A DNA stretch of 38,820 bases. It comes from a virus. Location: positions 1-38,820 of the IMG/VR virus record IMGVR_UViG_3300024351_000451. One strand, given 5' to 3'. Below are positions 7,791 to 38,820 of the stretch, in pieces. The position numbers were made by a program, and so were the translations under genes. The notes beneath the pieces were generated by a model. It was not told the origin of the DNA. It searched no databases and was given only the letters and a program-made list of their open reading frames with translations. Each line of letters starts with the position of its first letter. Positions within the stretch are counted from its first letter, which is position 1.

Positions 7791-8213
7791 TTAAACTGCA
7801 ATCAATACTAATACGTCTGCTGACGAATCGTTATCTAAATACCACTTGTACTTGTTACCGCTAAAGTCATAAGCAAGGCGCTTAGTTAATTTAGCAATAG
7901 CAGTAGTACCAGGAGTTTGACCAGTTGTAGAACCTAAAATACGAATTTCACCATTGGCTGCTGGTGTTCCAGAAACTAGTTTACCAACTTTTAAGTTAGT
8001 ACCTGTAATAGAACTGATGCTTTCTGCTTCAGTAAATGCATCATCGGATGTTTTTAAAACAACGTATGTGCTCTTGCCACGTTGTTTAACAATTTGATAG
8101 TCACTGGCTAATGAACCGCCGAAGTAACCTTGAACTAAAATACCTGCTTGTGATGTAGTAAATGAACGAGTAACTTTAGTACCGTATACATCTTTCTTTA
8201 ATGGACGTCCCAT
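7791..8213 (-). CDS. Small probable virion protein next to the capsid gene (140 aa)
   Basis: A 140-residue protein starting MGRPLKKDVYGTKV with AAGGAG 7 bases upstream. The N-terminus is basic. The rest is predicted beta rich, with YFGGSLASDYQIVKQRG, a Gly/Thr-rich middle (LGSTTGQTPGTTAIAK) and a C-terminus KWYLDNDSSADVLVLIAV. It is the first gene after the capsid terminator and has its own late-type promoter and a hairpin-rich leader, so strong late expression is expected. Head decoration or another abundant virion protein is a guess from position; I do not recognise a T4 counterpart. Confidence 0.72.
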   Translation of the reverse strand: MGRPLKKDVYGTKVTRSFTTSQAGILVQGYFGGSLASDYQIVKQRGKSTYVVLKTSDDAFTEAESISSITGTNLKVGKLVSGTPAANGEIRILGSTTGQTPGTTAIAKLTKRLAYDFSGNKYKWYLDNDSSADVLVLIAV

Positions 8214-8245
8214 TTGTTTTCTCCTTATGTTGACGTTTTAGGTCT

Positions 8246-8281
8246 ACGCAGAGGGATTCTGCATAAGTTCGCTAATGCGAA
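8246..8281 (-). promoter_or_regulatory. Two adjacent hairpins in the mRNA leader of the 140-aa gene
   Basis: On the minus strand the leader contains TTCGC-ATTA-GCGAA (8268-8281) followed by ATGCAGA-ATCCC-TCTGCGT (8246-8264, one G-T pair). Both lie between the late-type box (8297-8306) and the AAGGAG ribosome binding site. Paired hairpins at the 5' end of a phage late message could stabilise it; this is inference. Confidence 0.5.
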
Positions 8282-8296
8282 TATAATTTAGACATT

Positions 8297-8362: not shown

Positions 8363-9538
8363 TTACTGGAATGTAGCGTTAGAGATACTAACTGTACCTA
8401 AGTAATCAGCCGCGTTACCAAGAGATGATGCTGTGTTGTTCAACTCAACATATCCATAACGAGTCATGAAAGACACGACTGGTTCGAATGATGTTGGGTC
8501 TAATACAACGCCAGAGCTCATCAATGGAACGTATGGGCAGTAGAAAGCGGCTGCGTCAGATTCGCTAGAACCTTTGTAACCAACTAATACTGATGCGCTG
8601 TCAGATGCGTATGTGTTAACATAGATCTTCATAGCATTGTTCAATGTACCAACAAACTTAGTGTTTGTAGGTGCTTCGAAAGTACCTTCTGTTGTTCTTG
8701 CGAACGCAGAAGTTGTTGCACTTTGAAGGATTGTTAATGCGTATGGGCTAACAACGGCCCAGTTACCAGCACCACGACGTGTACGTTGTGCGATAACGTT
8801 AGCGGCACGGTTGATTAGAACTGCCAAAGCGGCGTGTTCGTCACCAACGAATGTTGCTGTACCAGATACTGTTGCCTGGTCAAATGCTTGGTTGTTACCG
8901 TTAGATGTTGCAAGAGTTGCTAGGGAACCTAGAACTTCTTGGTCGATTTCAGCAGTGATTTCTTGAGCAAGAGCAGCCATGATTTCTGCTTCGATGTCAA
9001 TACCTTGTTGGGCTTGTGCATCTTGAGCAGCCTCGAATGTCCAACGTGCAGACAATTTACGAGTCTTGGCTTCAACTGTTTGCTTCAAGATTTGGATGCT
9101 CATACGCTTACCAGCAACACCTTCTAATGCGGCAGTTGCGGCGGCTGTAGTAGCAGATCCGTTATTTGCAGAATAACCTTCTGCAATCTTGAATGGGCTT
9201 AGAGCCTCTTCACCAGCGGTAGCACCATATGTACCACTTAGTGTATCGCTGTAGCGAACACGTAGAGTATGGATTTGACCAACTGGACCAGTCATTGGTT
9301 GTACACCAACTAATTCGTTGGCAATAACTGTTGGCATAACACGACGGATCACTGGAAGGATCACGCGGTTAAGGGTTGCGACGTTACCGGCAGAAGTAGC
9401 ACCAGTTGACGCAGATTCTGAAAGATACTTACGAGTATTCTCTAAAGTAACTCCCATTACGCTACGCTTGGTACCTTGAAGGCCTTCTAATAGTGCCTCT
9501 TTAGTTTCTTGCCAGCGGCTTTCTAGTAGTTCTGACAT
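8363..9538 (-). CDS. 23: Major capsid protein gp23
   Basis: A 391-residue major head protein that forms the hexamers of the capsid. The T4 gp23 family is recognised by NVATLNRVILPVIRRVMP, ANELVGVQPMTGPVGQIHT and the later QRTRRGAGNWAVVSP, GVVLDPTSFEPV and MTRYGYVEL. T4 gp23 is 521 residues, so this is a compact form. The N-terminal region (MSELLESRWQETKEALLEG, then KYLSESASTGATS) has LxE sites of the kind cut by the gp21 protease; the LSE/S site near residues 39-42 is a plausible maturation point. AAGGAG precedes the start. It is last in the operon gp68-21-22-23, before a strong terminator. Confidence 0.97.
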   Translation of the reverse strand: MSELLESRWQETKEALLEGLQGTKRSVMGVTLENTRKYLSESASTGATSAGNVATLNRVILPVIRRVMPTVIANELVGVQPMTGPVGQIHTLRVRYSDTLSGTYGATAGEEALSPFKIAEGYSANNGSATTAAATAALEGVAGKRMSIQILKQTVEAKTRKLSARWTFEAAQDAQAQQGIDIEAEIMAALAQEITAEIDQEVLGSLATLATSNGNNQAFDQATVSGTATFVGDEHAALAVLINRAANVIAQRTRRGAGNWAVVSPYALTILQSATTSAFARTTEGTFEAPTNTKFVGTLNNAMKIYVNTYASDSASVLVGYKGSSESDAAAFYCPYVPLMSSGVVLDPTSFEPVVSFMTRYGYVELNNTASSLGNAADYLGTVSISNATFQ

Positions 9539-13028: not shown

Positions 13029-14738
13029 TTATGCTGGTGGAGCGGCTGGCGCGGGAGCGGCACCTGGTGCTGGCGCACCGCCTTCTGCTCCTGCTTCAGG
13101 TGCCATACCTTCGGGTGCTGGTGTTTCTCCTGCCATAGCACTAGCATCTGCGGCAATGCCCGTTGGGCTTACACCTGCTGTACGCAATTCTCCTGCGGCA
13201 TCCATTGCGTTAGACTTGGCCATACCGCTTTCTTCTTTCCACAGACGTTCGTTTTCTGCTAAGTCTTCGTCTGTCATACCTAAGAAACGTTTTAGTGCAA
13301 ACCGTTTAGCAATAAATGGCAATGCTACTACCTGTGCAAAAGTACTGATACGTTGATTGTCTAACTCTGCTTGACGATATGCGGCAAAGTTTTGTGGACT
13401 TTGGAAACGAATATCAAACAAACTAAAGTCAATGTTTACACCTTTGTTATACAAGAATAATTTAAATTCTGTATCAAATGTACTGATCATTAACGTTTGT
13501 AAACGCTCGCAATATTTGTTAAAACGTAGTTCTTGAATGTATGCTGTACCTACACGTCCATCATTAAATGCCGCTTGACTGTCATCTGCGCCTGTAGGCA
13601 AGTAACTGCTAGGAATACGTAGAGCTCGCATTAACTTGTTAGTAAAATACTTTAAGTCGTCGATTTCGCCCAGGTTAGTACCGCCCGGTAGCGTTTCAAC
13701 TTTACTTCCACGACCTTCTGCTGTCTGTGGAAAGAAGTAGTCTTCATTGATAGACAACGGATTGTAAGCACTATCAATAGCACTGCCACCGCCTGTACTA
13801 CTAGGAATACGTCTTTGATGAATCTCATTTTTAACTCTTTCAACAAAGCTCATGGCCAAGTGACTAGGCATATTGCCTACGTCAATGTAGAAAATTCTAC
13901 GCTCTGGAGCACGTTGAATACGATAGATAATAATAGCATCTTCCAGTAATTCTTTCTGTTTGTAAACTTTAAAAACAGATTCTAACAGCGAATTACCAAA
14001 AGGATAATTGTTGTCTAAGCCTTCACTTAGACTAAGATGTACAACGTGTTTAGCATCAATAGCAAATTCATTTTGACTTTTGCTAAAACGTGTTCCTGAC
14101 TGCTGAGGATATGATCCTGTCATACCGCGAGCACCGCTGCCGCCTTGTGTATAAGCGGCACCACCAGGCTGTTGATTTTGTGTATTAGGATTAATCTGTG
14201 TTACAACTAAATCCTGTAAATTAATGTTTAAGTCGCGGATAACGTATTGTTCTGGCTTCTTGCCTTCGCTTTCGTTAACAATAATCTTTACAACTTTACC
14301 CGGATCAACGTAATACCATTTTTGTGTTTCTGGATCGCGTACAAAGAATCCGTCGCCGTATTTGAACAAGTTACGTGCAATACGGAACATACGTGTATCA
14401 AGTTTTTGTAACTTAGTCCACTGTTGTAGGTATTCCTTTAAAATTTTAATTTCAGAATTTGTAGCACGATTTCTAAATTGTAATGTAAACGGTGTACCGT
14501 TTTCTTTATTTTTCTGTGTGCAAAACTCTGCTAGAATGTCCAATGCGGCATTAACTTCGCTGTCCCAATCCATGGTGTCGTACTGCATATAACGCTCAAC
14601 ACGATTTGGACTACCAGTGTAAACATCTGGAAGATAGGAACTATAGTTGGATCGTGCAGGACCAGGCTTTCCGCCTGCGCCGGATATCGGGCTAACGTTG
14701 CCTGTTGTTACTGGAGAGAAATGTCTTTTCCAACTCAT
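13029..14738 (-). CDS. 20: Portal vertex protein gp20
   Basis: A 569-residue portal protein, the dodecameric channel at the head vertex used for DNA packaging. T4 gp20 family features include VERYMQYDTMDWDSEVNAAL, NLFKYGDGFFVRDP, APERRIFYIDVGNMP, NPLSINEDYFFPQTAEGRGS, VETLPGGTNLGEIDDLKYF and RALRIPSSYLP. T4 gp20 is 524 residues; the excess lies mainly in a Gly/Gln-rich insert at about residues 183-215 (NPNTQNQQPGGAAYTQGGSG) and an Ala/Pro-rich C-terminal tail. It is preceded on the same strand by the tape measure gene and followed by the gp67-like gene. Confidence 0.97.
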   Translation of the reverse strand: MSWKRHFSPVTTGNVSPISGAGGKPGPARSNYSSYLPDVYTGSPNRVERYMQYDTMDWDSEVNAALDILAEFCTQKNKENGTPFTLQFRNRATNSEIKILKEYLQQWTKLQKLDTRMFRIARNLFKYGDGFFVRDPETQKWYYVDPGKVVKIIVNESEGKKPEQYVIRDLNINLQDLVVTQINPNTQNQQPGGAAYTQGGSGARGMTGSYPQQSGTRFSKSQNEFAIDAKHVVHLSLSEGLDNNYPFGNSLLESVFKVYKQKELLEDAIIIYRIQRAPERRIFYIDVGNMPSHLAMSFVERVKNEIHQRRIPSSTGGGSAIDSAYNPLSINEDYFFPQTAEGRGSKVETLPGGTNLGEIDDLKYFTNKLMRALRIPSSYLPTGADDSQAAFNDGRVGTAYIQELRFNKYCERLQTLMISTFDTEFKLFLYNKGVNIDFSLFDIRFQSPQNFAAYRQAELDNQRISTFAQVVALPFIAKRFALKRFLGMTDEDLAENERLWKEESGMAKSNAMDAAGELRTAGVSPTGIAADASAMAGETPAPEGMAPEAGAEGGAPAPGAAPAPAAPPA

Positions 14739-14750
14739 TATTAATTCCTA

Positions 14751-17120
14751 TTATGCACTATTATTTGAAGTTTGTCTAGTGTATTTGGCTGTCTTGCTCA
14801 AATAATCCACAGCGTCTGATTGATGTGAGACTAATTGACTCATATTCATATTTAACTGATTTAACAGGTCTACCATCTCTTTGCTGGACGCATCGGATAC
14901 TTTTACGTTTCCAGGTGCTCCTTCTTTTTGCTCAGACTTCATAGAGCTCTTGATGGTTTCGCTTAATTTATTAATGTTATTATTCAGTTGATCTAAATTA
15001 GTGTTATTCAAATCTTTAAATGCACTAGTTGTTGTAGTAATTTCTTCTCTAAGATTTTTTAATTTAATAACACCTGCATCGATACTTGAACCCACTGCCT
15101 CTGGGAACATTAATTTTGAATAATCTACATCCTTTAATGCCGTTTTAAGTGCATTAACTTCTTGATTTAACTTTGCTACAGGTTCGGCAGCATTTGTCTC
15201 TGGAGGTTTTGGTGCATTTGCTTTTGGTATTTCTGCACCAGGTACTGTATTTTTAGTATTTTCCGTTTGTGCATTAGCGGCCGCATTTGTTTTTGTCTTT
15301 AAAAAGTCTGGAGTTAGAAAATCAACAACTTCATCTTTATAAATGATTAATCCTGCTGTTGTTGCTATTGCCCAGGCCCATGGATTCTTTATAGTGGAAA
15401 CAATTTTTTCTAGTTTTCCGGCTTTTGCAACATCTTCTGCGGCTTCTGCGGCTGCTCCTGGCTTAACTGGTTCTCCTTTAGGAGTTTTAGGTTCACCACC
15501 TTTAGGTTCACCGCCACCTTTTTTCATTTCTTCATATTTTTTATAATCCATGCCAGCGGCTTTTGCACCAGCATAACCTATTGCAGTACCTACACCAGCC
15601 TTAATAAGAGCATCTGCAATCTCTTTACCTAGTGCGGCTCCAAACAATACTGGAATTCTTGCGGCTGGATCTAACTTAGCAAATTTTTCAGCGGCTGCTT
15701 CTGCACCACTTGCCGCCGATTTTAATCCAGTTGCGGTTAAATCTAGTACGCCACTTTCAATAAATGACTTCTTAAATGAATTTTGTACATTAGTTAATGT
15801 CTGATCTAAACCTGCTACTGCTCTTGTTGGGTCTGTCTTAGATGCAGCCAGACGTTTTTCTTGTTCTTCCTTGGCCATTGCGGCTGCTTTTTGCGAGTCG
15901 CCCATGCCTTGTAATACTGCTTTACCTAACATTGGAGTCATTTGACCCATAGTTGCCATTGCGGCGGCTGTTCTTCTTTCGCCTTCGCTGATATTTTCGC
16001 TGGCTTTGGCGGCTTTACTAAATCCAGCGTTCATATCGTCGACAGCAGACTTAGATCCGTTAAAAATTTCTCGGCCCATTTTACTAGCATCAACGCCTGC
16101 ACTTTGCATTGTCAATGCAAATTGTCTTGCTTCAGCAGTTACAGCAACACCACCGCCAGCAATAATATCTTTAAAGCCTGCGGCCATTTTACCAGTTGGA
16201 TCTAGTTGTTCTAACTGTTTAATTTTAGCATTAACTGCCGCCTGTTGGTCTGCATCTAATTTGCCTAATGCTAATTTCATTCTAGCATCACGTTGAGATG
16301 ATTTATTGGCTTCATCTATCTGTTGTCTAGATAATCCTGTTGCCTTTGATAGTCTGTCTAGTTCTTCGTTATATTTTTCTTGACCTGCAACAATTTCATC
16401 AGTGCTCATCTTTGACAAGCGACCGTTGCGTTGTTGTTGTTCCATGTAACTAGCATTATATGTTGCTAGTTCATCCATACTAAATCCAAGCGCGGCAAAT
16501 TTTTGACCGCTCTGTGCCATAAACTTGCCTTGTGTTTCAGCAAACTTAGTAGCACCAGCAGTGGCAGATCCAAACGCCATAGCCAGCGATTGGCTGTTTT
16601 CTTTTACAGTTTTTCCAAAAATTTCTAAAGGAAGTCTTGCTTCACCTGCTGATAGTTGTGCTTGTAACAATGAATCACCTAAGTCAATACCAGATCCACT
16701 TAGTGTTCTAAAAATTTGTATTTGATCTTCTAATGTTCCGCCAAATTGCTGAACTACATCGCTAACGCCCTTGATGTTTGCGCCGGGCATTTGTGCCAGT
16801 ACACCAGAAAAATCTTTAATTGTAGGAGTAGTATTTGAAAATGTTTTAGCAAATGAGTCTGCACCAAGAGATACAGCATCTCCTGCTAGTTTCATTCGTG
16901 CCTTATATTCTTTTTCAGTTTCAGCACCTTTTCGCATTTGCTCAGCCCGAGCATCATTGTCTCCTGCGCCACCGCCACCGCCGGGCGTGGCACCAGGTTT
17001 TCCGCCTGCAGGTATTCCGCTTTTATTAATTGCCGCAAGTATCTGTCTAAGAGTCGAGTCTTCGGCAGCGTTTTCTACAATAACTGTTCCTACTCCAGGA
17101 ACTATGGCTTTTACTGACAT
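14751..17120 (-). CDS. Probable tail tape measure protein (gp29 counterpart)
   Basis: A 789-residue, Ala/Lys/Glu-rich, mostly helical protein. It starts MSVKAIVPGVGTVIVENAAE, then a Gly/Pro linker (residues 36-55), long helical segments (about 60-480), two hydrophobic stretches (about 485-523 and 578-595, the latter NPWAWAIATTAGLIIY) and a helical C-terminus. Long helices with internal hydrophobic segments are typical of tape measure proteins, which set tail length and pass through the tube. It is divergent from gp26, which with its frameshift extension looks like a tail assembly chaperone pair; such chaperones act on the tape measure. T4 gp29 is 590 residues. No close sequence match was recognised, so the role rests on architecture and context. 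Confidence 0.65.
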   Translation of the reverse strand: MSVKAIVPGVGTVIVENAAEDSTLRQILAAINKSGIPAGGKPGATPGGGGGAGDNDARAEQMRKGAETEKEYKARMKLAGDAVSLGADSFAKTFSNTTPTIKDFSGVLAQMPGANIKGVSDVVQQFGGTLEDQIQIFRTLSGSGIDLGDSLLQAQLSAGEARLPLEIFGKTVKENSQSLAMAFGSATAGATKFAETQGKFMAQSGQKFAALGFSMDELATYNASYMEQQQRNGRLSKMSTDEIVAGQEKYNEELDRLSKATGLSRQQIDEANKSSQRDARMKLALGKLDADQQAAVNAKIKQLEQLDPTGKMAAGFKDIIAGGGVAVTAEARQFALTMQSAGVDASKMGREIFNGSKSAVDDMNAGFSKAAKASENISEGERRTAAAMATMGQMTPMLGKAVLQGMGDSQKAAAMAKEEQEKRLAASKTDPTRAVAGLDQTLTNVQNSFKKSFIESGVLDLTATGLKSAASGAEAAAEKFAKLDPAARIPVLFGAALGKEIADALIKAGVGTAIGYAGAKAAGMDYKKYEEMKKGGGEPKGGEPKTPKGEPVKPGAAAEAAEDVAKAGKLEKIVSTIKNPWAWAIATTAGLIIYKDEVVDFLTPDFLKTKTNAAANAQTENTKNTVPGAEIPKANAPKPPETNAAEPVAKLNQEVNALKTALKDVDYSKLMFPEAVGSSIDAGVIKLKNLREEITTTTSAFKDLNNTNLDQLNNNINKLSETIKSSMKSEQKEGAPGNVKVSDASSKEMVDLLNQLNMNMSQLVSHQSDAVDYLSKTAKYTRQTSNNSA

Positions 17121-17144: not shown

Positions 17145-17152
17145 TATAAATA
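17145..17152 (+). promoter_or_regulatory. Late promoter TATAAATA for gp26
   Basis: A perfect match to the T4 late promoter core TATAAATA, followed by TAATG, 41 bases before the gp26 start codon. It is the only exact consensus copy noted in the window. Confidence 0.75.
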
Positions 17153-17178: not shown

Positions 17179-17193
17179 TTGGAGTAAAAACAC

Positions 17194-18060
17194 ATGGAAA
17201 ATCAAGTAGCAGTACCGCAAAACCCGTTGAAGAAGTACTTTAGACAACCGAAGCTCTATGTTCGTTTGCCTAGTTCTGGTAATTTTTATCCACCAGGCAC
17301 GTTAGAACCTACACAAAATATGGAGTTTCCAGTTTATGCTATGACTGCTAGAGATGAAATTTCTATTAAAACACCAGACGCATTGTTAAATGGTCAAAGT
17401 ACTGTTGATGTTATTCAAAGTTGTATGCCTAATATTAAAAATGCCTGGGCAATTCCTAGTATTGATATTGATGCTATATTAATTGCTATTCGTATTGCAA
17501 CATATGGCGAACAAATTGATGTAGATATTGCTATTCCAAACATATCAGAAACAAAAACGTATACTACTGACCTACGATTAGCGTTAGATAAACTGTTAGA
17601 TGCTACATTTGATCCAGAAGTTCGAATTAATGATGAATTAACTGCATTTTTACGTCCATTATCCTATGAAGAATTTACTAAAAGTTCTTTAAAAAGTTTA
17701 GAAGAACAACGAATTTTTACTATTGTTAACAGTCAAGAACTAACAGAAGAACAAAAGATTGCTCAATTTAATAAGAGTTTTAAAGCATTAACTGAAATTA
17801 CCATGAGATCAGTGGCCAATGGATTAGTCAAAGTTGTTACGCCTGAAGGCGAAGTAAGTGATCCAGCATTTATTAAAGAGTTTATCGATAATGCTGACAA
17901 AGAATTTTATACTAAAATCATCGATCACTTGGAAAAACAACGCATTAAGTTTCAAATGCCGTCGTTTAAAATTCAAACTACAGCAGAAGAGCAAGCTCAA
18001 GGTGCTCCTGCTGAATTTGAAACTCCTATAGGACTAGACGCTTCAAATTTTTTCGCGTAA
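17194..18060 (+). CDS. 26: Baseplate hub/tail assembly chaperone gp26 (zero-frame product)
   Basis: A 288-residue protein of the T4 baseplate gp26 type. Recognisable parts are KKYFRQPKLYVRLPSSGNFY (residues 12-31), PVYAMTARDEISIKTPDALL, QSCMPNIKNAWAIPSIDIDA and LRPLSYEEFTKSSLKSLEEQ. These resemble the surface/chaperone-type proteins that act on hub and tape measure assembly. T4 gp26 is 208 residues. GGAG lies 9 bases before the ATG and a perfect late promoter lies upstream. The last codons are AAT TTT TTC GCG TAA, which include the slippery heptamer T TTT TTC at 18048-18054. A -1 slip there bypasses the stop and joins a 76-codon continuation. The gene is divergent from the tape measure gene. 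Confidence 0.85.
   Translation: MENQVAVPQNPLKKYFRQPKLYVRLPSSGNFYPPGTLEPTQNMEFPVYAMTARDEISIKTPDALLNGQSTVDVIQSCMPNIKNAWAIPSIDIDAILIAIRIATYGEQIDVDIAIPNISETKTYTTDLRLALDKLLDATFDPEVRINDELTAFLRPLSYEEFTKSSLKSLEEQRIFTIVNSQELTEEQKIAQFNKSFKALTEITMRSVANGLVKVVTPEGEVSDPAFIKEFIDNADKEFYTKIIDHLEKQRIKFQMPSFKIQTTAEEQAQGAPAEFETPIGLDASNFFA
18048..18054 (+). promoter_or_regulatory. Programmed -1 frameshift slippery site T TTT TTC
   Basis: The heptamer T TTT TTC is in the zero frame of gp26, two codons before its TAA. It fits X XXY YYZ, and the overlapping A AAT TTT at 18045-18051 fits as well. A possible stimulatory stem pairs CTCTT (18063-18067) with AAGAG (18092-18096), 8 bases after the slip site. A -1 shift gives a 363-residue product (287 zero-frame residues plus 76). 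Confidence 0.7.
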
Positions 18061-18284
18061 AGCTCTTCAGCCTAACACTCGAAGACGCACTAAGAGTAGT
18101 TGAGGGGCTAGATAAAGAAGCAAAGTCCATAAGAACCGAATTGTTTAAATTGTGCTGGTATATGAGAGGTAGCATCACCATAGATGACGCATTTGCATTA
18201 TCCTATGAAGATCGTGAAATCATATCGAATATTATCAAAGAGAATTTAGAAACTACTAAGAAATCAGGATTACCCTTTTTCTAA
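18054..18284 (+). CDS. 51: gp51-like frame, expressed as a -1 extension of gp26
   Basis: A 76-codon open frame in the -1 phase that begins right at the slip site and ends at TAA 18282-18284. It reads RVKLFSLTLEDALRVVEGLD at the start and YMRGSITIDDAFALSYEDRE then ETTKKSGLPFF at the end. The latter resembles the end of gp51 (hub assembly catalyst) in marine T4-like phages, from memory. No ATG/GTG with a ribosome binding site lies at its beginning; the first ATG is internal (WYM). Expression as a fusion by -1 frameshifting, like the lambda GT protein, therefore explains it best. A sequencing error is the main alternative, but the slippery heptamer at exactly this point argues against one. Confidence 0.75.
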   Translation, partial: RVKLFSLTLEDALRVVEGLDKEAKSIRTELFKLCWYMRGSITIDDAFALSYEDREIISNIIKENLETTKKSGLPFF

Positions 18285-18459: not shown

Positions 18460-18727
18460 AGCGTTAGAGCATTACAGTGGCGGTTGTCCGGTACCACGAG
18501 CTCCGTCTTATCACAACGGCGGTAAACAAATATACGCTATCATACTTGCTTACGTGAGGTTTTTCTCCTCTCCTTGAGCCTTTTCTTCTTAAAACAGCAA
18601 AACCGCGGCAATTTGCGATCCTCGTCCTGTTAAGGATAGTTGCTGAGTACTCTTAACGGCAAGAGAATTCCGTCCCTGCGACCCGAGGTCCAGGTATAGA
18701 GCGCACGAATTTAGCCTGCGCTAGCCA

Positions 18728-19171
18728 TTAACCGTTTGATTTTGCCTGTGCTTGTTCTAATAAACGCTGTCTTAGTATATTTGATCCGCCTACTCTAACA
18801 TTAATAATACCGTTATAGTAGTCGTCAGTTTCTAAAACCCTACGTTCGAACTGCTCTCTTGCCTCTAGATAAGACATTTCTGCCTTGGATTTGCAAAAAT
18901 AAAGTATTTCTCTTGTGAATTTTTCTGGACCTAGTGCGTGGACGTCTGCTTGTAATCTCTCAGATGAGCCCCAATATTCGCGCCAATCGCTTTCTACTGT
19001 GCTACGTCTTTTGAGTTTTTTGCCTTTGAGTGGTGGTTTTGTACGCTTAAACTGTGCTAGTTTTTTGCCTATATATTTCTGTCCAGATTGGTTGTTAGTG
19101 ATGAGATAAACAAAGCCTATAACGCCTTCGGGTATTTCTTCAACTAATACATTTTGATAGTGCCACGACAT
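18728..19171 (-). CDS. GIY-YIG-type nuclease-like protein
   Basis: A 147-residue protein if started at the second ATG (MSWHYQNVLVEEIPEG); an ATG two codons earlier (19177) is also possible, and neither has a clear ribosome binding site. GFVYLITNNQSGQKYIGKK (residues about 17-35) is a GIY-YIG motif with the first element as FVY. The Lys/Arg-rich KRTKPPLKGKKLKRR, then DWREYWGSS and the TREILYF region follow. Similar proteins are common beside gp46 in marine T4-like phages and are usually annotated as putative endonucleases; no intron or inserted-gene context is visible here. A catalytic Glu is plausible in YLEAREQFE. DNA cleavage is inferred, not shown. Confidence 0.7.
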   Translation of the reverse strand: MSWHYQNVLVEEIPEGVIGFVYLITNNQSGQKYIGKKLAQFKRTKPPLKGKKLKRRSTVESDWREYWGSSERLQADVHALGPEKFTREILYFCKSKAEMSYLEAREQFERRVLETDDYYNGIINVRVGGSNILRQRLLEQAQAKSNG

Positions 19172-19186
19172 GCACATATATACCAG

Positions 19187-32114: not shown

Positions 32115-35100
32115 ATGGCATTTACTAAAGATCAAAAAGAACCAAGTCTGCCAATCGGTACAGATACAACTAGAAGCGCGGTTAATTTTTTACCTAGATA
32201 TTTTAGAACTAGTACCAATCAGAAATTTTTAAACGGAACATTAGATCAGTTAATTTCTGTTGGCAATGTTGATAAAATTAATGCGTATATTGGTAGAAAA
32301 AATAGCAAAGCCTATGTGCCTTCGGACAACTATGTTGATGAAATATCTGTAGAACGTTCTGCCTACCAACTTGAGCCAGCAATTATTGTCAAAGATAGTT
32401 TAGAGAATGTAACATTCTTCAGTGATTATAACGACTATATCAACCAACTTGTATATTTTAATTCTTCTGCGGTAGACCATAGCAAGATTAACAGTCAAGA
32501 GTTTTATAGTTGGAATCCTAATATAGATTGGGACAAATTTGTTAACTATAGAGAATATTACTGGCTACCAAAAGGTCCGCAGTCTATTGCAGTTAAAGGA
32601 CAATCTCGTAGTATTATTAGCACATATACTGTGACTACTGTCAGCGATGTTGACAATATTGCCTATGTTTTCAGTCCAGACGGATTAACTCGCAACCCAA
32701 GTCTAAAATTGTATAGAGGTCAAACTTATAAGTTTGATATTAATTGTCCAGGTAATGCAATCGCATTTAAGACAATCAGAGATATGGCCGATTCTTATAT
32801 CTACACTGATGGGGTTATCAGCGATACTCCTTATGTAGAAGTGGGAACTATTACTTTTACAGTTCCAGACGATGCACCAGATTTATTATATTACGTTAGT
32901 GCTAACAATATTAATACATCTGGATTCTTTAAAATTTATGATATTGCCGAGAATACATTTATCGATGTCGAAAAAGAAATACTAGGAAAGAAAACATATA
33001 ATATTGACGGTACAACAGAGTTGTCCAACGGTATGAAAGTTTATTTTATAGGTAATGTTACTCCGGCGAAGTATGCTACAGACAACTGGTATGTTGAAGG
33101 TGTAGGTGATAAAATTAGATTAATTGCAGAGTTTGATTTACAAACTCCATCATCTTTTGCCTTAGACAGCGACATCGAATTTGATACAGAAAACTTTGAT
33201 ACACAAGGTTTTGATGTTAATAGTAACTATCCTGCGGAAAAAGATTATATCACTATCAGCAGAGCAAGCAGAGATAGAAATCACTGGTCGAGATATAACC
33301 GCTGGTTCCATCGTTCAGTCATAGAAGCCAGTGCAACATATAATAATCAACCTGTTGAAATAGATCAGACTGCTAGAGCTAAACGACCTATTATTGAATT
33401 TAAACCAGACTTACAATTATGGAATTTTGGACGTCAGGCAAAGCGTAGCGTTGATTTAGTTGACTTGTATACTAAAGATGCGTTTTCGACTGTTGAAGGT
33501 AGTATAGGTTATAATATTGACGGTGTATTATTACTAGAAGGCATGCGTGTTCTGTTTGCCGCTGATACTGATGCCATTGTAAATGGTCGTATTTTTAAAA
33601 TTGGATTTATTACACACCTTGGTGTTAAGAGAATTACACTATTAGAAGAAACAGATACTACTCCTATTGACGGTGAAACTGTACTAGTTACAGACGGCGA
33701 CAATTTTAAAGGAAAAATGTTCCACTATTCTAGTGGTGCGTGGGTAGAGAGTCAGGACAAAACAGCAGTTAATGTTGCACCATTGTTTGATGTAGTTGAT
33801 GTAAACGCCACAAGTTTTGGAGATAGAACAACTTATATTGGTTCTTCATTTATCGGATCTAAAGTTTTTAGTTACCAGCCAGGCGACACATATGATAATA
33901 TTTTAACACAAAATATTTCTTATAGAAACATTGGTAATATTGGAGATATTGTTTTTGACTTCAATTTACAAAAAGATTCATTTACCTATCAAGGCGAAGT
34001 TGAACTTATCACACGAGTGCTTGACCGAGGGTATCTTCGAATTAATGATAGTCTTTCAGACTATAGACTTGTTAATGGATGGGTCAAATCTGAGTTTCAA
34101 ACAAAACAACCGGTTATACGACAAATCAATGTCCAGGCAGATTTGTTAAATTTATTCCCTATTGACGTCTATGCAAAGAGCGGAATGTTAGACGACTTAG
34201 ATGTTAAGGTTTTTGTTAACAATAAGAAACGTACAGATTATGAAATTTACAGACAAAATAGTATTGCTTACATTCAGTTTACCGCAGATTTAACTGTAGA
34301 CGATGTTGTAGTTATAGAAACAATGTCTTCTGCTACTAAATTAGATAACATCGGATATTATAAATTCCCAAGTAATCTTGAAAGCAACCCGCAAAATTTA
34401 AGTTTAGAAGATTTGACCTTAGGTCAAATTTCTAATCATTTAAAAACTATTTCAGAAAATTTTGTTAAGTTTGAAGGTAACATTCCAGGCATTAGTAATC
34501 TGCGCGACCTAGGAAACATATCAGGATATGGTACACAGATAGTTCAGCATTCTGGACCTTTAGCACCAATCATGTATAGTTTTACAAATAAAAACGTTAA
34601 CATTATTAAGAGTTTGCGTTATGCCAGAGACGAATATTCTAAATTCAAACGTAATTTAATTAGAACTGCAACTACATATGGTTACGATGGTATAACTCGT
34701 ACACATTTAGATTTGGTGCTTAAAGAAGTAACCAAAGATAAAACAGTCGAGTCTCCATTTTATCTAAGCGACATGGTTCCGTTTGGAGTTAATTTTGTCT
34801 ATGAACAAGAAGTTATTGATAATTCCTTCACTGATTATCCACTGACATTCGATTTTAATTTAGACGAAGCAAGTTCTAAAGCAGTAATGGTATATGTCAA
34901 CGATGATCTTTTACTGCACGGCAGAGATTACATTTTCGTCAATACAAGTTTTGTTAGAATATTATCTGCAATACAAACTGGCGATATATTAAAAATTTAT
35001 CAATACGATCAAACTGCGGGCTGTTGTGTTCCACCGACTCCTACTAAGTTAGGATTGTATCCATTGTTTGAACCAAAGATTTTTGTCGATAACACTTATG

Positions 35101-38100
35101 TTACTCCTACAAAAGTTATACAAGGTCACGACGGTAGTATTACTGTTGCATTTTCAAAACCAGATGAGCCAAATGAATTTAGAGACGAGTTATTACTAGA
35201 ATTAGAAACACGTATCTATAATAATATTAAAATTCGTTACAATCCAGAATTGTTTAATCTTGATACATTAATGACTGGATATTTTAGAAATGCCGATATT
35301 ACTGTTGACGAATTGAATTCTACACTAAGACAAGAGTTCTTAAACTGGACTAGTTTAATCAACGACGATTATACTAAACACAGTTTCTTTGATAGAAACG
35401 AGCCGTTTACTTATAACTATAAGTCATTTGCTGACCCGCAAGGAAATCCGTTGCCAGGTTTCTGGAGAGGAATATACAAATATTTCTACGATACAGATCG
35501 TCCGCACACACATCCATGGGAGATGTTAGGATTCAGTATTAAACCAAAATGGTGGGAGACTACCTACGGTCCAGCACCTTATACTAAAGATAATTTATTA
35601 CTATGGAATGACCTAGCAGAAGGCCTTGTAAGAGCTCCGGGTCAGTTACCAACACGAAACAGTTTATATGCTAGACCTGAATTGTTAAAATATGTACCTG
35701 TTAATGCGTCAGGAGAATTAATTGACCCACTAACTGTTGGACTAGTTTCAGATTTTGTTTCAGTCTTTACAGAAAAAGAATTCACTTTTGGCGATCAAAC
35801 ACCTATTGAAACAGCGTGGAGACGTAGCAGTCATTACGCATTTTCTTTAATTACTGCACTTACTCTATTACGTCCTGCAAAAATGTTTGCTTTAGGATTT
35901 GATAGAATTCGCCAGTACAGAGATCAAACAGGACAAATTGTTTATAAACTTCCTACAGGTAACTTGAGATTTAATACCACAAATATGGTATTCCCAAGTA
36001 CTGTTAAAGACAGCACAAGAGTGTTTACCAGCGGACTAGTAAACTATTTGTCAGACTATGGTATTAGCAAATCGTTTGCAATACTTGACAATTTTAAATC
36101 AGACTTAACTTCTTTACAAGTAAAAATTTCCAGCAAATTAGCCGGCTTTACTACTAAAGAAAAATTTAAATTAATTTTAGATAGTCGTAGTCCTTTGAAT
36201 GAAGGCAATGTATTCATTCCTCAGGAAAACTATAACATTATTTTAAACTCTAGCACACCAGTTACTACTATTAACTATAGCGGTGTAATTATTGAAAAAA
36301 CAACCAGCGGCTTTGTTATTAAAGGTTACGATAAATCTATACCAGAATTTAAGTATAAAAAAGCTCTGGATACAGTATCGGACCCGATAATCAATGTGGG
36401 CGGAATCTCTGAAACTTATATTGACTGGAATTCAAATAAATTCTACAGCAAAGGTCAAATTGTTAAGACAGATCAAAACTATTTTAGAGTTACTGTAGCG
36501 CATACAAGTACTACGGCATTTGAATCAAAGTATTTTGTTAAACTGCCATATCTACCAATTGTTGGCGGACGTCAGATTGTAATAAGAAGAAATTTTGAAA
36601 AATCTGTAAGCACATTACACTACGGCGCAGAATTAAGAACAGTACAAGAAGTCGTTGATTTCTTATTAGGTTACGGAAAATATCTAACAGATGCAGGTTT
36701 CACATTTGAATATTTTAATCCTAATTTAAAAACAGTCACAGACTGGCAAACCAGTGCCAAAGAGTTTGCGTTTTGGACTACACAAAACTGGGCCGAAGGT
36801 TCGATTATTACTGTAAGTCCTGCCGCAGAAGAATTGATTTACAGACAAGATTATGCTGTAGTTGACAGCATTTACGATCCTTTCTATGAATATAGCCTAT
36901 TCAAACAAGACGGCGTAGAATTAGAACCAAGTTTTACTAATAGCATTCGTGAAAATAATAGTTTTAGTCTGCGACCAAAAAATACAGCAGACGGTTTATA
37001 TCATGCTACATTGAATCTTGTACAAAAAGAACACGTTTTAATTTTAGATGACACTACAATTTTTAATGACATTATCTACGATCAAGTACAGGGCTATAGA
37101 CAAGAACGTATTAAAGTAGTTGGATATAAAATTAGCGACTGGACAGGCGACTTTAGTATTCCAGGGTTTGTCTACGACCGTGCAGTTGTTTCAGAATGGA
37201 CAGCATGGAAAGACTATGCCTTAGGTGAAACTGTAAAATACAAAGAATTTTATTATAGTGCCAGAACAAATGTTCCAGGTACAGAATTGTTTGACGACAA
37301 TAATTGGTACAGACTAGATGGAAGACCACAAAGTAAATTAATTCCTAACTGGGATTATCGTGCTACACAGTTTGAAGATTTTTATGATTTAGATACAGAT
37401 AGTTTTGATGTTGACCAACAAAAGTTTGCTCAACATTTAATCGGCTATCAAAAGCGCCAATACCTTGAGAATATTATTAATGATGATGTAAGTCAGTACA
37501 AGTTCTATCAAGGTATGATTCAAGAAAAGGGTACACAAAACAGTTTATCTAAATTGTTTGACGCACTAAACTATGCAAACACAGATAGTTTAGAATTCTT
37601 TGAAGAGTGGGCAATTCGCTTAGGACAATACGGTGCCAGCGGTGGCTACGAGGAAGTAGAATATATTCTTAATGAAGAAAAATTCTTAATTAACCCACAG
37701 CCAATTGAATTAGTAAATGCAGTTCCGTTTGGAGTGAACGATTTTGTTTATAGAATTACTCAGGATCAAGTTTACTTAAAACCTGACGACTATACACACG
37801 AGCCGTTCCCAGTACTAGCATCTCAGAAAGAATATATTAGAACTGCGGGCTATGTTAACTATGAAGACGTTGACTACATTATTTCTTCTAAAGATGAATT
37901 CGCCAACTACAATATTAAAAATCTTGTAGAAGGTACATATTTCTGGTTAGGATTTGATAACAGTTCTTGGAATGTTTATAGATTTACTAATTTCGCTAAG
38001 TCTGTTAAGAGTGTATCAGAAGGTACTAACTTAAGAATTACTCTTAATACTAAACTACCTGTAGATATAGAAGTTGGATCTTATATTGGAATTAATAATA

Positions 38101-38820
38101 CTAATGCTTCGTTAGAAGGCATTAAACAAGTATTAGATACAGGCTTAAACTGGTTTGAAATAACCATGCCTGCTAATTTAGATACTGCGGCAATTGCAGA
38201 AATTAATTTATTTTTAAACATTAATTTGTTTAAATTTACTCCACAACGACTATCGTCAATTAACGATTTAAATTCCTTGCCTGTTTCTGCTAAGAAAAAT
38301 AATGAAATAGTATGGACAGACGGAGTCAACAATGCTTGGAGTGTCTGGAAGTTTGCTAAAACATACACTAGCACAAAAATCACTAGTGAAGAAAATTATT
38401 TTGGAAAAGTTATTGCGGTTGATAACACAGAAACAGTATTGGCAGCAACATCAACAAATGCAGTTTTGTTCTACAGCAGACCTACATCGACATTTGGATG
38501 GGCGTTCCAGGATTCTATTTTCCCATTATCGACAGAAACATTTACCGACACTAACGGAAGTTTCGGTGATAGTTTATGCTTTAATGCCGACGGATCTTAC
38601 TTATTTGTAGGCGCACCGCGTTACGGTATTACATCTGAACCAGGTGCTCTACCAACAGATCCTCCAATCATTACAGAAGTGGATATTGGTTATGTGGCAC
38701 AGTACACAAAAAATATCTACGGCAGTTACGAATTTACAAGAGTAATTCAAAGTGCTACACCAACACAGTTCCAATATTTTGGACAGAAGATACAGGTAAA
38801 TGGAAATGTATTATACATTG
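32115..38820 (+). CDS. 7: Giant baseplate wedge protein gp7-like (partial, C-terminus beyond window)
   Basis: An open frame of at least 2235 residues starting MAFTKDQKEPSLPIGTDTTR 10 bases after gp6, with AAGGAC upstream. The N-terminal AVNFLPRYFRTSTNQKFLNG, then QLISVGNVDKINAYIGRK and FYSWNPNIDWDKFVNYREYY, fits the large gp7 of marine T4-like phages; T4 gp7 is 1032 residues. Middle segments include FWRGIYKYFYDTDRPHTHPW and FSIKPKWWETTYGP. From about nucleotide 38400 the sequence changes to repeats of the type YFGKVIAVD, FGDSLCFNADGSYLFVGAPR and YFGQKIQVNG, resembling FG-GAP beta-propeller blades, cut by the edge. gp7 bridges the wedge periphery; the propeller may be a surface or fibre-contact domain (inference). 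Confidence 0.85.
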   Translation, partial: MAFTKDQKEPSLPIGTDTTRSAVNFLPRYFRTSTNQKFLNGTLDQLISVGNVDKINAYIGRKNSKAYVPSDNYVDEISVERSAYQLEPAIIVKDSLENVTFFSDYNDYINQLVYFNSSAVDHSKINSQEFYSWNPNIDWDKFVNYREYYWLPKGPQSIAVKGQSRSIISTYTVTTVSDVDNIAYVFSPDGLTRNPSLKLYRGQTYKFDINCPGNAIAFKTIRDMADSYIYTDGVISDTPYVEVGTITFTVPDDAPDLLYYVSANNINTSGFFKIYDIAENTFIDVEKEILGKKTYNIDGTTELSNGMKVYFIGNVTPAKYATDNWYVEGVGDKIRLIAEFDLQTPSSFALDSDIEFDTENFDTQGFDVNSNYPAEKDYITISRASRDRNHWSRYNRWFHRSVIEASATYNNQPVEIDQTARAKRPIIEFKPDLQLWNFGRQAKRSVDLVDLYTKDAFSTVEGSIGYNIDGVLLLEGMRVLFAADTDAIVNGRIFKIGFITHLGVKRITLLEETDTTPIDGETVLVTDGDNFKGKMFHYSSGAWVESQDKTAVNVAPLFDVVDVNATSFGDRTTYIGSSFIGSKVFSYQPGDTYDNILTQNISYRNIGNIGDIVFDFNLQKDSFTYQGEVELITRVLDRGYLRINDSLSDYRLVNGWVKSEFQTKQPVIRQINVQADLLNLFPIDVYAKSGMLDDLDVKVFVNNKKRTDYEIYRQNSIAYIQFTADLTVDDVVVIETMSSATKLDNIGYYKFPSNLESNPQNLSLEDLTLGQISNHLKTISENFVKFEGNIPGISNLRDLGNISGYGTQIVQHSGPLAPIMYSFTNKNVNIIKSLRYARDEYSKFKRNLIRTATTYGYDGITRTHLDLVLKEVTKDKTVESPFYLSDMVPFGVNFVYEQEVIDNSFTDYPLTFDFNLDEASSKAVMVYVNDDLLLHGRDYIFVNTSFVRILSAIQTGDILKIYQYDQTAGCCVPPTPTKLGLYPLFEPKIFVDNTYVTPTKVIQGHDGSITVAFSKPDEPNEFRDELLLELETRIYNNIKIRYNPELFNLDTLMTGYFRNADITVDELNSTLRQEFLNWTSLINDDYTKHSFFDRNEPFTYNYKSFADPQGNPLPGFWRGIYKYFYDTDRPHTHPWEMLGFSIKPKWWETTYGPAPYTKDNLLLWNDLAEGLVRAPGQLPTRNSLYARPELLKYVPVNASGELIDPLTVGLVSDFVSVFTEKEFTFGDQTPIETAWRRSSHYAFSLITALTLLRPAKMFALGFDRIRQYRDQTGQIVYKLPTGNLRFNTTNMVFPSTVKDSTRVFTSGLVNYLSDYGISKSFAILDNFKSDLTSLQVKISSKLAGFTTKEKFKLILDSRSPLNEGNVFIPQENYNIILNSSTPVTTINYSGVIIEKTTSGFVIKGYDKSIPEFKYKKALDTVSDPIINVGGISETYIDWNSNKFYSKGQIVKTDQNYFRVTVAHTSTTAFESKYFVKLPYLPIVGGRQIVIRRNFEKSVSTLHYGAELRTVQEVVDFLLGYGKYLTDAGFTFEYFNPNLKTVTDWQTSAKEFAFWTTQNWAEGSIITVSPAAEELIYRQDYAVVDSIYDPFYEYSLFKQDGVELEPSFTNSIRENNSFSLRPKNTADGLYHATLNLVQKEHVLILDDTTIFNDIIYDQVQGYRQERIKVVGYKISDWTGDFSIPGFVYDRAVVSEWTAWKDYALGETVKYKEFYYSARTNVPGTELFDDNNWYRLDGRPQSKLIPNWDYRATQFEDFYDLDTDSFDVDQQKFAQHLIGYQKRQYLENIINDDVSQYKFYQGMIQEKGTQNSLSKLFDALNYANTDSLEFFEEWAIRLGQYGASGGYEEVEYILNEEKFLINPQPIELVNAVPFGVNDFVYRITQDQVYLKPDDYTHEPFPVLASQKEYIRTAGYVNYEDVDYIISSKDEFANYNIKNLVEGTYFWLGFDNSSWNVYRFTNFAKSVKSVSEGTNLRITLNTKLPVDIEVGSYIGINNTNASLEGIKQVLDTGLNWFEITMPANLDTAAIAEINLFLNINLFKFTPQRLSSINDLNSLPVSAKKNNEIVWTDGVNNAWSVWKFAKTYTSTKITSEENYFGKVIAVDNTETVLAATSTNAVLFYSRPTSTFGWAFQDSIFPLSTETFTDTNGSFGDSLCFNADGSYLFVGAPRYGITSEPGALPTDPPIITEVDIGYVAQYTKNIYGSYEFTRVIQSATPTQFQYFGQKIQVNGNVLYI

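Follow-up and report, generated by a model that had tools for sequence, protein, structure and literature searches.

Tail assembly chaperones and frameshifting in tailed phages

The tail assembly chaperones gpG and gpGT of phage lambda, a short and a long protein, are produced through a programmed -1 frameshift. Frameshifting of this type is described as widely conserved in long-tailed phages, with T4 as the exception (Atkins 2016, PMC5009743, available text). In T4, gp26 and gp51 are both termed hub assembly chaperones (T4 review, PMC3004832, accessible part), and Vladimirov, Gautam and Davidson (2022) are reported to have identified the tail assembly chaperones (TACs) of T4-like phages, with gp26 as the short and gp51 as the long form. 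On the account of Vladimirov 2022 given in the available text of the PRFect paper, some T4-like phages do not frameshift but use one short gene and a second gene for the long fusion. The paper on phage Adele (2025, PMC12846349, available text) credits the same study with poly-T -1 signals in T4-like TAC-N genes. It also proposes, for the TAC of Adele-type phages (Vandenendeviridae/Andersonviridae), a -1 shift at a T-rich site that ends TAC-N, followed by an open -1 frame of more than 200 bp. Among the matches listed in a search of the open literature, covering titles and abstract openings, no paper was concerned with frameshifting between gp26 and gp51 in either jumbo phages or cyanophages, a negative of limited weight. 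The remark in a first-pass annotation of this DNA that no published description was known is at best partly right, given the poly-T sites already credited to Vladimirov 2022 in that part of the Adele paper. Judging from what these papers attribute to it, Vladimirov 2022 may already cover part, or even most, of the finding presented here.

The window, i.e. the whole 38,820-nucleotide stretch of the IMG/VR virus record IMGVR_UViG_3300024351_000451, comes from a giant phage related to T4 and contains a locus that shares with lambda the signature of a -1 frameshift yielding a short and a long chaperone. It differs from lambda in that the short form is a 288-aa gp26-like protein, in that the slip site is T TTT TTC, and in that the candidate tape measure gene is divergent and not downstream. 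The Adele-type TAC likewise differs, as it is found in other families, has a GTTTTT motif and lies upstream of the tape measure gene. T4 contains two divergent genes, 26 and 51, and no heptamer, whereas the window contains one gene with a slip site.

We consider it highly probable (about 0.92), from comparison of the reading frames and their relatives, that a programmed -1 ribosomal frameshift yields two tail assembly chaperones from this one gene. Most ribosomes would terminate at the TAA at 18058 and release the 288-aa TAC-N (gp26). The stem-loop 6 nt downstream would stall the ribosome at T TTT TTC, where a minority would slip back by one base, the two Phe tRNAs re-pairing in tandem from TTT TTC to TTT TTT. 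Translation of the -1 frame would then produce a 363-aa TAC-NC as a minority product beside TAC-N. By analogy with lambda gpG/gpGT, many copies of TAC-N would coat the tape measure protein, while the C-domain of the few TAC-NC copies would recruit the tail tube protein. The slipping itself, its efficiency, the TAC-N/TAC-NC ratio, the partners, the role and the absence from virions are what we infer, with ratio, binding and absence taken from lambda (PMC5009743, available text).

Organisation of the locus

The positions of the relevant features are listed in Table 1. The zero-frame ORF terminates with TCA AAT TTT TTC GCG TAA, and a frame scan found the -1 phase open over 18021-18284. Counted from the heptamer, the -1 frame has the translation FFRVKLFSLTLEDALRVVEGLDKEAKSIRTELFKLCWYMRGSITIDDAFALSYEDREIISNIIKENLETTKKSGLPFF, and the predicted fusion, join(17194..18054,18054..18284), comprises 363 aa. 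Recomputation from the sequence reproduced the end of the gp26 frame, the -1 phase, the heptamer coordinates and the fusion length given by the first-pass annotation. Its second frame of 76 codons does begin at the heptamer, but contains 78 codons from there, 76 being the number of new residues that follow FF. The claim that this frame lacks a start site of its own holds as well, the earliest ATG, GTG or TTG being the TTG at 18141, 93 nt into the frame.

Table 1. Coordinates of the chaperone locus and its neighbours in the window
Feature	Position	Strand	Basis or remark
Portal protein	13029..14738	-	phrog_213, E 4.5e-113
Divergent 789-aa gene next to gp26, candidate tape measure	14751..17120	-	Gene order, weak similarity
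TATAAATA, T4 late-promoter-like motif	17145..17152	+	41 nt 5' of gp26; weak
GGAG, Shine-Dalgarno-like	17181..17184	+	9 nt 5' of gp26 ATG; window sequence
Putative TAC-N, 288-aa chaperone resembling T4 gp26, zero frame	17194..18060	+	PF12322, phrog_150
Slippery heptamer T TTT TTC	18048..18054	+	X XXY YYZ phase of the gp26 ORF
-1 frame ORF, predicted C-part of TAC-NC, gp51 C-terminal-like, 78 codons + stop	18048..18284	+	
Predicted stimulatory stem-loop, 11-bp outer stem	18061..18109	+	6-nt spacer (18055-18060), -18.0 kcal/mol

The identification of the first frame as gp26 is confirmed by a match to PF12322 (T4_baseplate; E 4.4e-8, 33.5 bits, above the curated Pfam cut-off of 24.5), and the ORF also matches phrog_150, labelled 'baseplate hub' (E 3.5e-11). 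Searched on its own, the second frame (18021-18281) yielded nothing in Pfam up to E 1 and just two PHROG matches, with E 0.14 and 0.27. The motif TATAAATA 5' of gp26 presumably resembles the T4 late-promoter motif; its single copy in the window, against 4.3 expected by chance, means that it is not enriched. Slippery heptamers in phase are common by chance in the ORFs of the window (47 per 11,149 codons in 21 ORFs, with three in-phase T6 runs), and the heptamer by itself is therefore unremarkable.

Conservation of the slip site

Relatives were gathered by gp26 homology, and the presence of a heptamer was no criterion. The first set consists of 102 loci, namely the window, 80 IMG/VR loci (the best 80 of 126 jumbo-type matches) and 21 named phages, while the second set holds 80 cyanophage-type IMG/VR loci (the best 80 of at least 598 confirmed matches). 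A search for gp26 matches listed 59 records of jumbo phages, and the junctions of 14 of these were read. Removal of loci that were at least 95% alike left 79 loci of the first set and 150 non-redundant loci over both sets.

All 102 loci of the first set carry the heptamer in phase, 101 as T TTT TTC and one, XacN1, as T TTT TTT, and T TTT TTC is present in all 80 cyanophage-type loci (best 80 of at least 598). Thus, heptamer and frame phase, which the first-pass annotation had proposed to follow across related phages, are kept throughout both sets. Taking all gp26 loci examined, and counting near copies, the heptamer occurs in 182 of 197. Its conservation, unlike its mere presence, is remarkable because the T run has a length of exactly six in 149 of the 150 non-redundant loci and of seven in the other. 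At the codon 5' of the Phe pair, eight residues occur (N, T, D, S, H, Y, A and R), and the third base of this codon is T in every one of the 79 loci, compared with a mean fraction of 0.53 for comparable codons of the same genes. This invariance indicates a constraint on the bases and not on the protein alone; no P-value is given, since the loci are related. The gp26 stop lies at one of eight distances, between 7 and 40 nt, from the first base of the heptamer (10 nt in 57/79 loci, 37-40 nt in 5/79). Despite this shifting stop, the -1 frame runs on from the heptamer for 59 to 81 codons in the 79 loci, except for one contig that ends at 44.

These data also bear on two alternatives to ribosomal slippage. 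A sequencing error or recent frameshift mutation as the cause of two broken genes has a negligible probability and no observation in its favour, and is refuted by the recurrence of this arrangement across numerous assemblies and named phages (182 loci with near copies counted). A miscalled T run, named in the first-pass annotation as a finding that would overturn the proposal, is excluded in the same way, as many independent assemblies and named phages share the run. Transcriptional slippage on the T run could likewise give a fused product, and the homopolymer does sit at the junction; yet such slippage usually requires longer runs, the length of six is nearly invariant, and the run stands in X XXY YYZ phase, often with a stem downstream, which makes this explanation very improbable.

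Coding constraint on the -1 frame

Selection on the -1 frame was estimated from codons 15-78 in the 59 non-redundant loci whose second frame has 78 codons, using 51 pairs of 70-97% identity. The median dN/dS is 0.135 in the -1 frame (45 unsaturated of 51 pairs) compared with 1.14 and 1.93 in the other frames, and the same codons contain no in-frame stop in the -1 frame, as opposed to 5.8 and 6.5 per locus in the others. In the cyanophage-type loci, the pooled pN/pS is 0.15 versus 1.16 and 2.46 (1824 pairs). By its substitution pattern, the -1 frame downstream of the heptamer is evolving as a protein. In jumbo loci that are startless up to codon 15, codons 5-14 show a modest reduction in pN/pS (0.54 vs 0.85 and 1.41; 14 loci, 62 pairs), and this weaker signal points to translation entering from gp26.

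The second frame could instead be a separate gene, translated by termination-coupled reinitiation or from a non-ATG start. Nearby start codons make separate initiation possible at a number of loci. Phosso, Atu_ph07, 121Q, VH7D and two further loci (L027 and L043) have an ATG immediately next to, or overlapping, the gp26 stop, and RC-2014, K369 and Cygsa01 show TAATG there and no heptamer. The -1 frame has an ATG, GTG or TTG within 45 nt past the heptamer in 52/79 loci (in 38 of them a TTG at +18) and among its first 15 codons in 70 of 71 cyanophage-type loci. Annotation is also in line with a separate gene, as 18 of the 21 named phage records with the heptamer list a separate short ORF, three list none (Paride, RaK2 and VH7D), and a joined gene is annotated in none of the 21. 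Against this stand the 27/79 loci without a start codon up to 45 nt past the heptamer and the window itself, where the -1 frame has no ATG, GTG or TTG before 18141. Reinitiation also leaves unexplained that the in-phase T run is invariant while any of eight residues may precede it, and that in five loci the gp26 stop lies 37-40 nt from the heptamer start. A separate gene is therefore unlikely, and programmed frameshifting is the preferred reading.

RNA structure downstream of the heptamer

In the predicted fold of the window, positions 18061-18071 pair with 18099-18109, with an inner hairpin inside this stem. The first-pass annotation had described a short stem 8 bases downstream; a stem is indeed predicted, but it is longer and closer, being 11 bp after a 6-nt spacer. 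Over 79 loci, the mean folding z of the 60 nt 3' of the heptamer is -1.49, compared with -0.15 upstream and -0.31 further downstream. A helix of at least 6 bp beginning 5-11 nt past the heptamer is predicted in 51/79 loci versus 146/632 control positions in gp26, and the predicted fold of the other 28 loci contains no matching helix. The exact register of the stem is not universal: among 59 loci, register 0 has a mean of 7.10 of 12 pairs and register -1 a mean of 7.46, versus 3.78-5.44 at eleven other slides. Nine or more pairs are formed by nine loci at register 0 and by 13 at register -1, counts that are confounded by coding constraint.

Homology to T4 gp26 and gp51

The window system is homologous to T4 gp26 and gp51 via cyanophage-type proteins. 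The cyanophage-type profile used for hhalign contains 85 sequences, i.e. 78 of the 80 IMG/VR loci and seven named phages, three of which (VH7D, phiAS5 and IC12) fall outside the cyanophages. T4 gp26 aligns with the cyanophage-type gp26 to the end of the gp26 part (99.6%), and T4 gp51 aligns with the cyanophage-type fusion over nearly the full gp51 length (99.0%, E 5e-18), its 'DVFKLLVNPDE' pairing with 'SFFRVALSHMS' at the junction. The jumbo fusion in turn matches the cyanophage-type fusion in an alignment that also spans the junction (98.7%, E 2e-16), and T4 gp51 and T4 gp26 are paralogues of each other (98.7%). In direct hhalign comparisons, jumbo-only profiles gave no significant match to either T4 gp51 (5.0%) or T4 gp26 (14.3%). 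When 79 fusions, 72 from jumbo phages and seven others, were combined into one profile and run on a 20-sequence test, the values were 8e-10 for T4 gp26, 1.7e-5 for the C-end of Aes508 gp51 and 0.0015 for Aes508 gp26, against 0.16 for the best shuffled control; the value for T4 gp51, 0.016, lies near that of the unrelated T4 gp25 (0.043).

The alignment of T4 gp51 across the junction of the cyanophage-type fusion suggests that gp26 resembles TAC-N and the 363-aa product TAC-NC. Thus, T4 gp51 looks like the counterpart of the long form and T4 gp26 like that of the short form, most clearly via the cyanophage-type intermediates. Since T4 gp51 has its own gp26-like N-domain, the small -1 frame would correspond to the C-part of T4 gp51. 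The description of the second frame as gp51-like accordingly stands through these intermediates (98.7%, 99.0%), but needs the correction that the frame matches the C-part only, gp51 being a complete long form.

The AlphaFold2 model of gp26 has a mean pLDDT of 85.1. It has 43 matches among viral models (BFVD, E<=0.001), several of which are named baseplate hub, and none in the PDB at E<=0.001 by Foldseek; a profile search of PDB sequences was likewise empty. Comparison with the HK97 tail assembly chaperone 2OB9 by VIA-align gave a Z of 6.0 over 100/107 residues (rmsd 4.8, rank 34), with other rows reaching Z 7.9, a similarity that is no more than suggestive. The second frame folded alone, without an alignment, reached a pLDDT of 52.4, and this model was discarded. 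The BFVD matches of gp26 also include uncharacterised proteins of about 500-550 aa from Erwinia Special G, Ralstonia RSF1 and RP12, possibly unrecognised tail chaperones.

A lambda-type signature and the exception of T4

The sequence evidence strongly supports reading this highly conserved signature as a lambda G/GT-type programmed -1 frameshift among phages of the T4 superfamily, and the interest lies in its wide distribution together with the T4 exception. The first-pass annotation had proposed the lambda G/GT design; its short/long signature is supported by the conserved heptamer and the gp51 homology of the fusion, and its tape measure part is suggestive. The arrangement suggests TAC-N and TAC-NC roles for the 'baseplate hub' gp26 and the small cyanophage 'baseplate hub assembly catalyst', and TAC roles for many short or unannotated ORFs, and it offers a natural experiment on how gene duplication replaces a frameshift.

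The heptamer is absent in 15 loci, of which 11 are of the T4 type (T4, Aes508 and nine more) and the others belong to Cygsa01, K369, SH19 and RC-2014. All 11 T4-type loci carry a separate full-length gene 51; the nine besides T4 and Aes508 come from ten loci (L109-L118) picked for the presence of gp51. In these ten, the last 36 nt of gene 26 were read; the gene end was recovered in 9/10, the cut-off gene 26 of one locus (L111) being uncounted, and lacks the heptamer in all nine, some of which are near copies of T4. The FF dipeptide persists in these genes and in T4 itself, spelled TTC TTT in 6/9 and in T4, which is consistent with the slip site disappearing after the long form gained a separate gene. 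The condition that the first-pass annotation had named as a refutation, related phages in which the two genes are separate and a slippery run is absent, does occur among T4-type phages, but the second gene there is the whole long form.

Cygsa01, K369, SH19 and RC-2014 have a short ORF in the -1 phase after gp26, and the TAATG at the gp26 stop seen in the other three is missing from SH19. In these four (L106, L107, L104 and L099), two Ackermannviridae and two other phages, gp26 has a TTTTC-type end in place of the heptamer.

As cyanophages and giant phages with homology to T4 show this signature too, T4 may be the derived case, in which the paralogues 26 (short form) and 51 (long form) would have taken over from the frameshift, an order of events proposed from unrooted comparisons. 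In its widest form, this scenario makes the T TTT TTC frameshift the ancestral and general route to the TAC pair in the T4 superfamily (cyanophages, Schizotequatrovirus, phiAS5-like, rhizobial and RaK2/121Q-type jumbo phages), not yet laid out in print, with T4 derived through duplication into 26 and 51 in place of frameshifting and the Ackermannviridae type as another loss. We regard this wide form as tentative and rather doubtful.

A search for further gp26 copies returned a single match each in a 270-kb contig of the window's lineage, in Phosso and in Atu_ph07. As this search missed both T4 homologues, a diverged second copy may exist in jumbo genomes.

Neighbouring genes and other features of the window

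The first-pass annotation had placed a divergent tape measure gene beside gp26. A large divergent gene does adjoin gp26, and its gene order is shared, but the 789-aa protein has no tape-measure match of its own in Pfam or PHROG. Of the 14 jumbo relatives whose annotation was read, nine list portal, large gene and gp26 in this order; the layout in Munch is the same but goes by a different name, Atu_ph07, Vibrio 2.275 and XacN1 are arranged differently, and SCTP-2 has no portal in view. The 789-aa protein is weakly similar to RaK2 ORF088 (E 4e-4) and a Phosso protein (E 8e-4), and more weakly to its SNUABM47 counterpart (0.015), which is labelled putative tape measure and has weak tape-measure PHROG matches (best 2.7e-6). 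Gene order and similarity are thus suggestive of a tape measure protein.

On the 3' side of the chaperone locus, a Polynucleobacter-1 RNA (RF01718, 119.3 bits) is located at 18592-18726 (-), and the same RNA occurs in 9 of 17 related loci scanned, on the same strand and at a distance of roughly 0.5 to 2.8 kb on the 3' side of gp26. The neighbouring small ORF at 18728-19177 (-) appears GIY-YIG-like by eye; its best PHROG match is phrog_447 (2.5e-37, labelled NAD synthetase), followed by homing endonuclease families from 1.2e-12. A freshwater-2 RNA (RF02980, 55.2 bits, typed as cis-regulatory) is found at 8211-8282 (-), directly 5' of a 140-aa ORF (7791-8213) and after an ORF at 8363-9538 that perhaps encodes a capsid protein. 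At the far end, an ORF of at least 2235 aa (32115-38819, +) runs past the end of the window.
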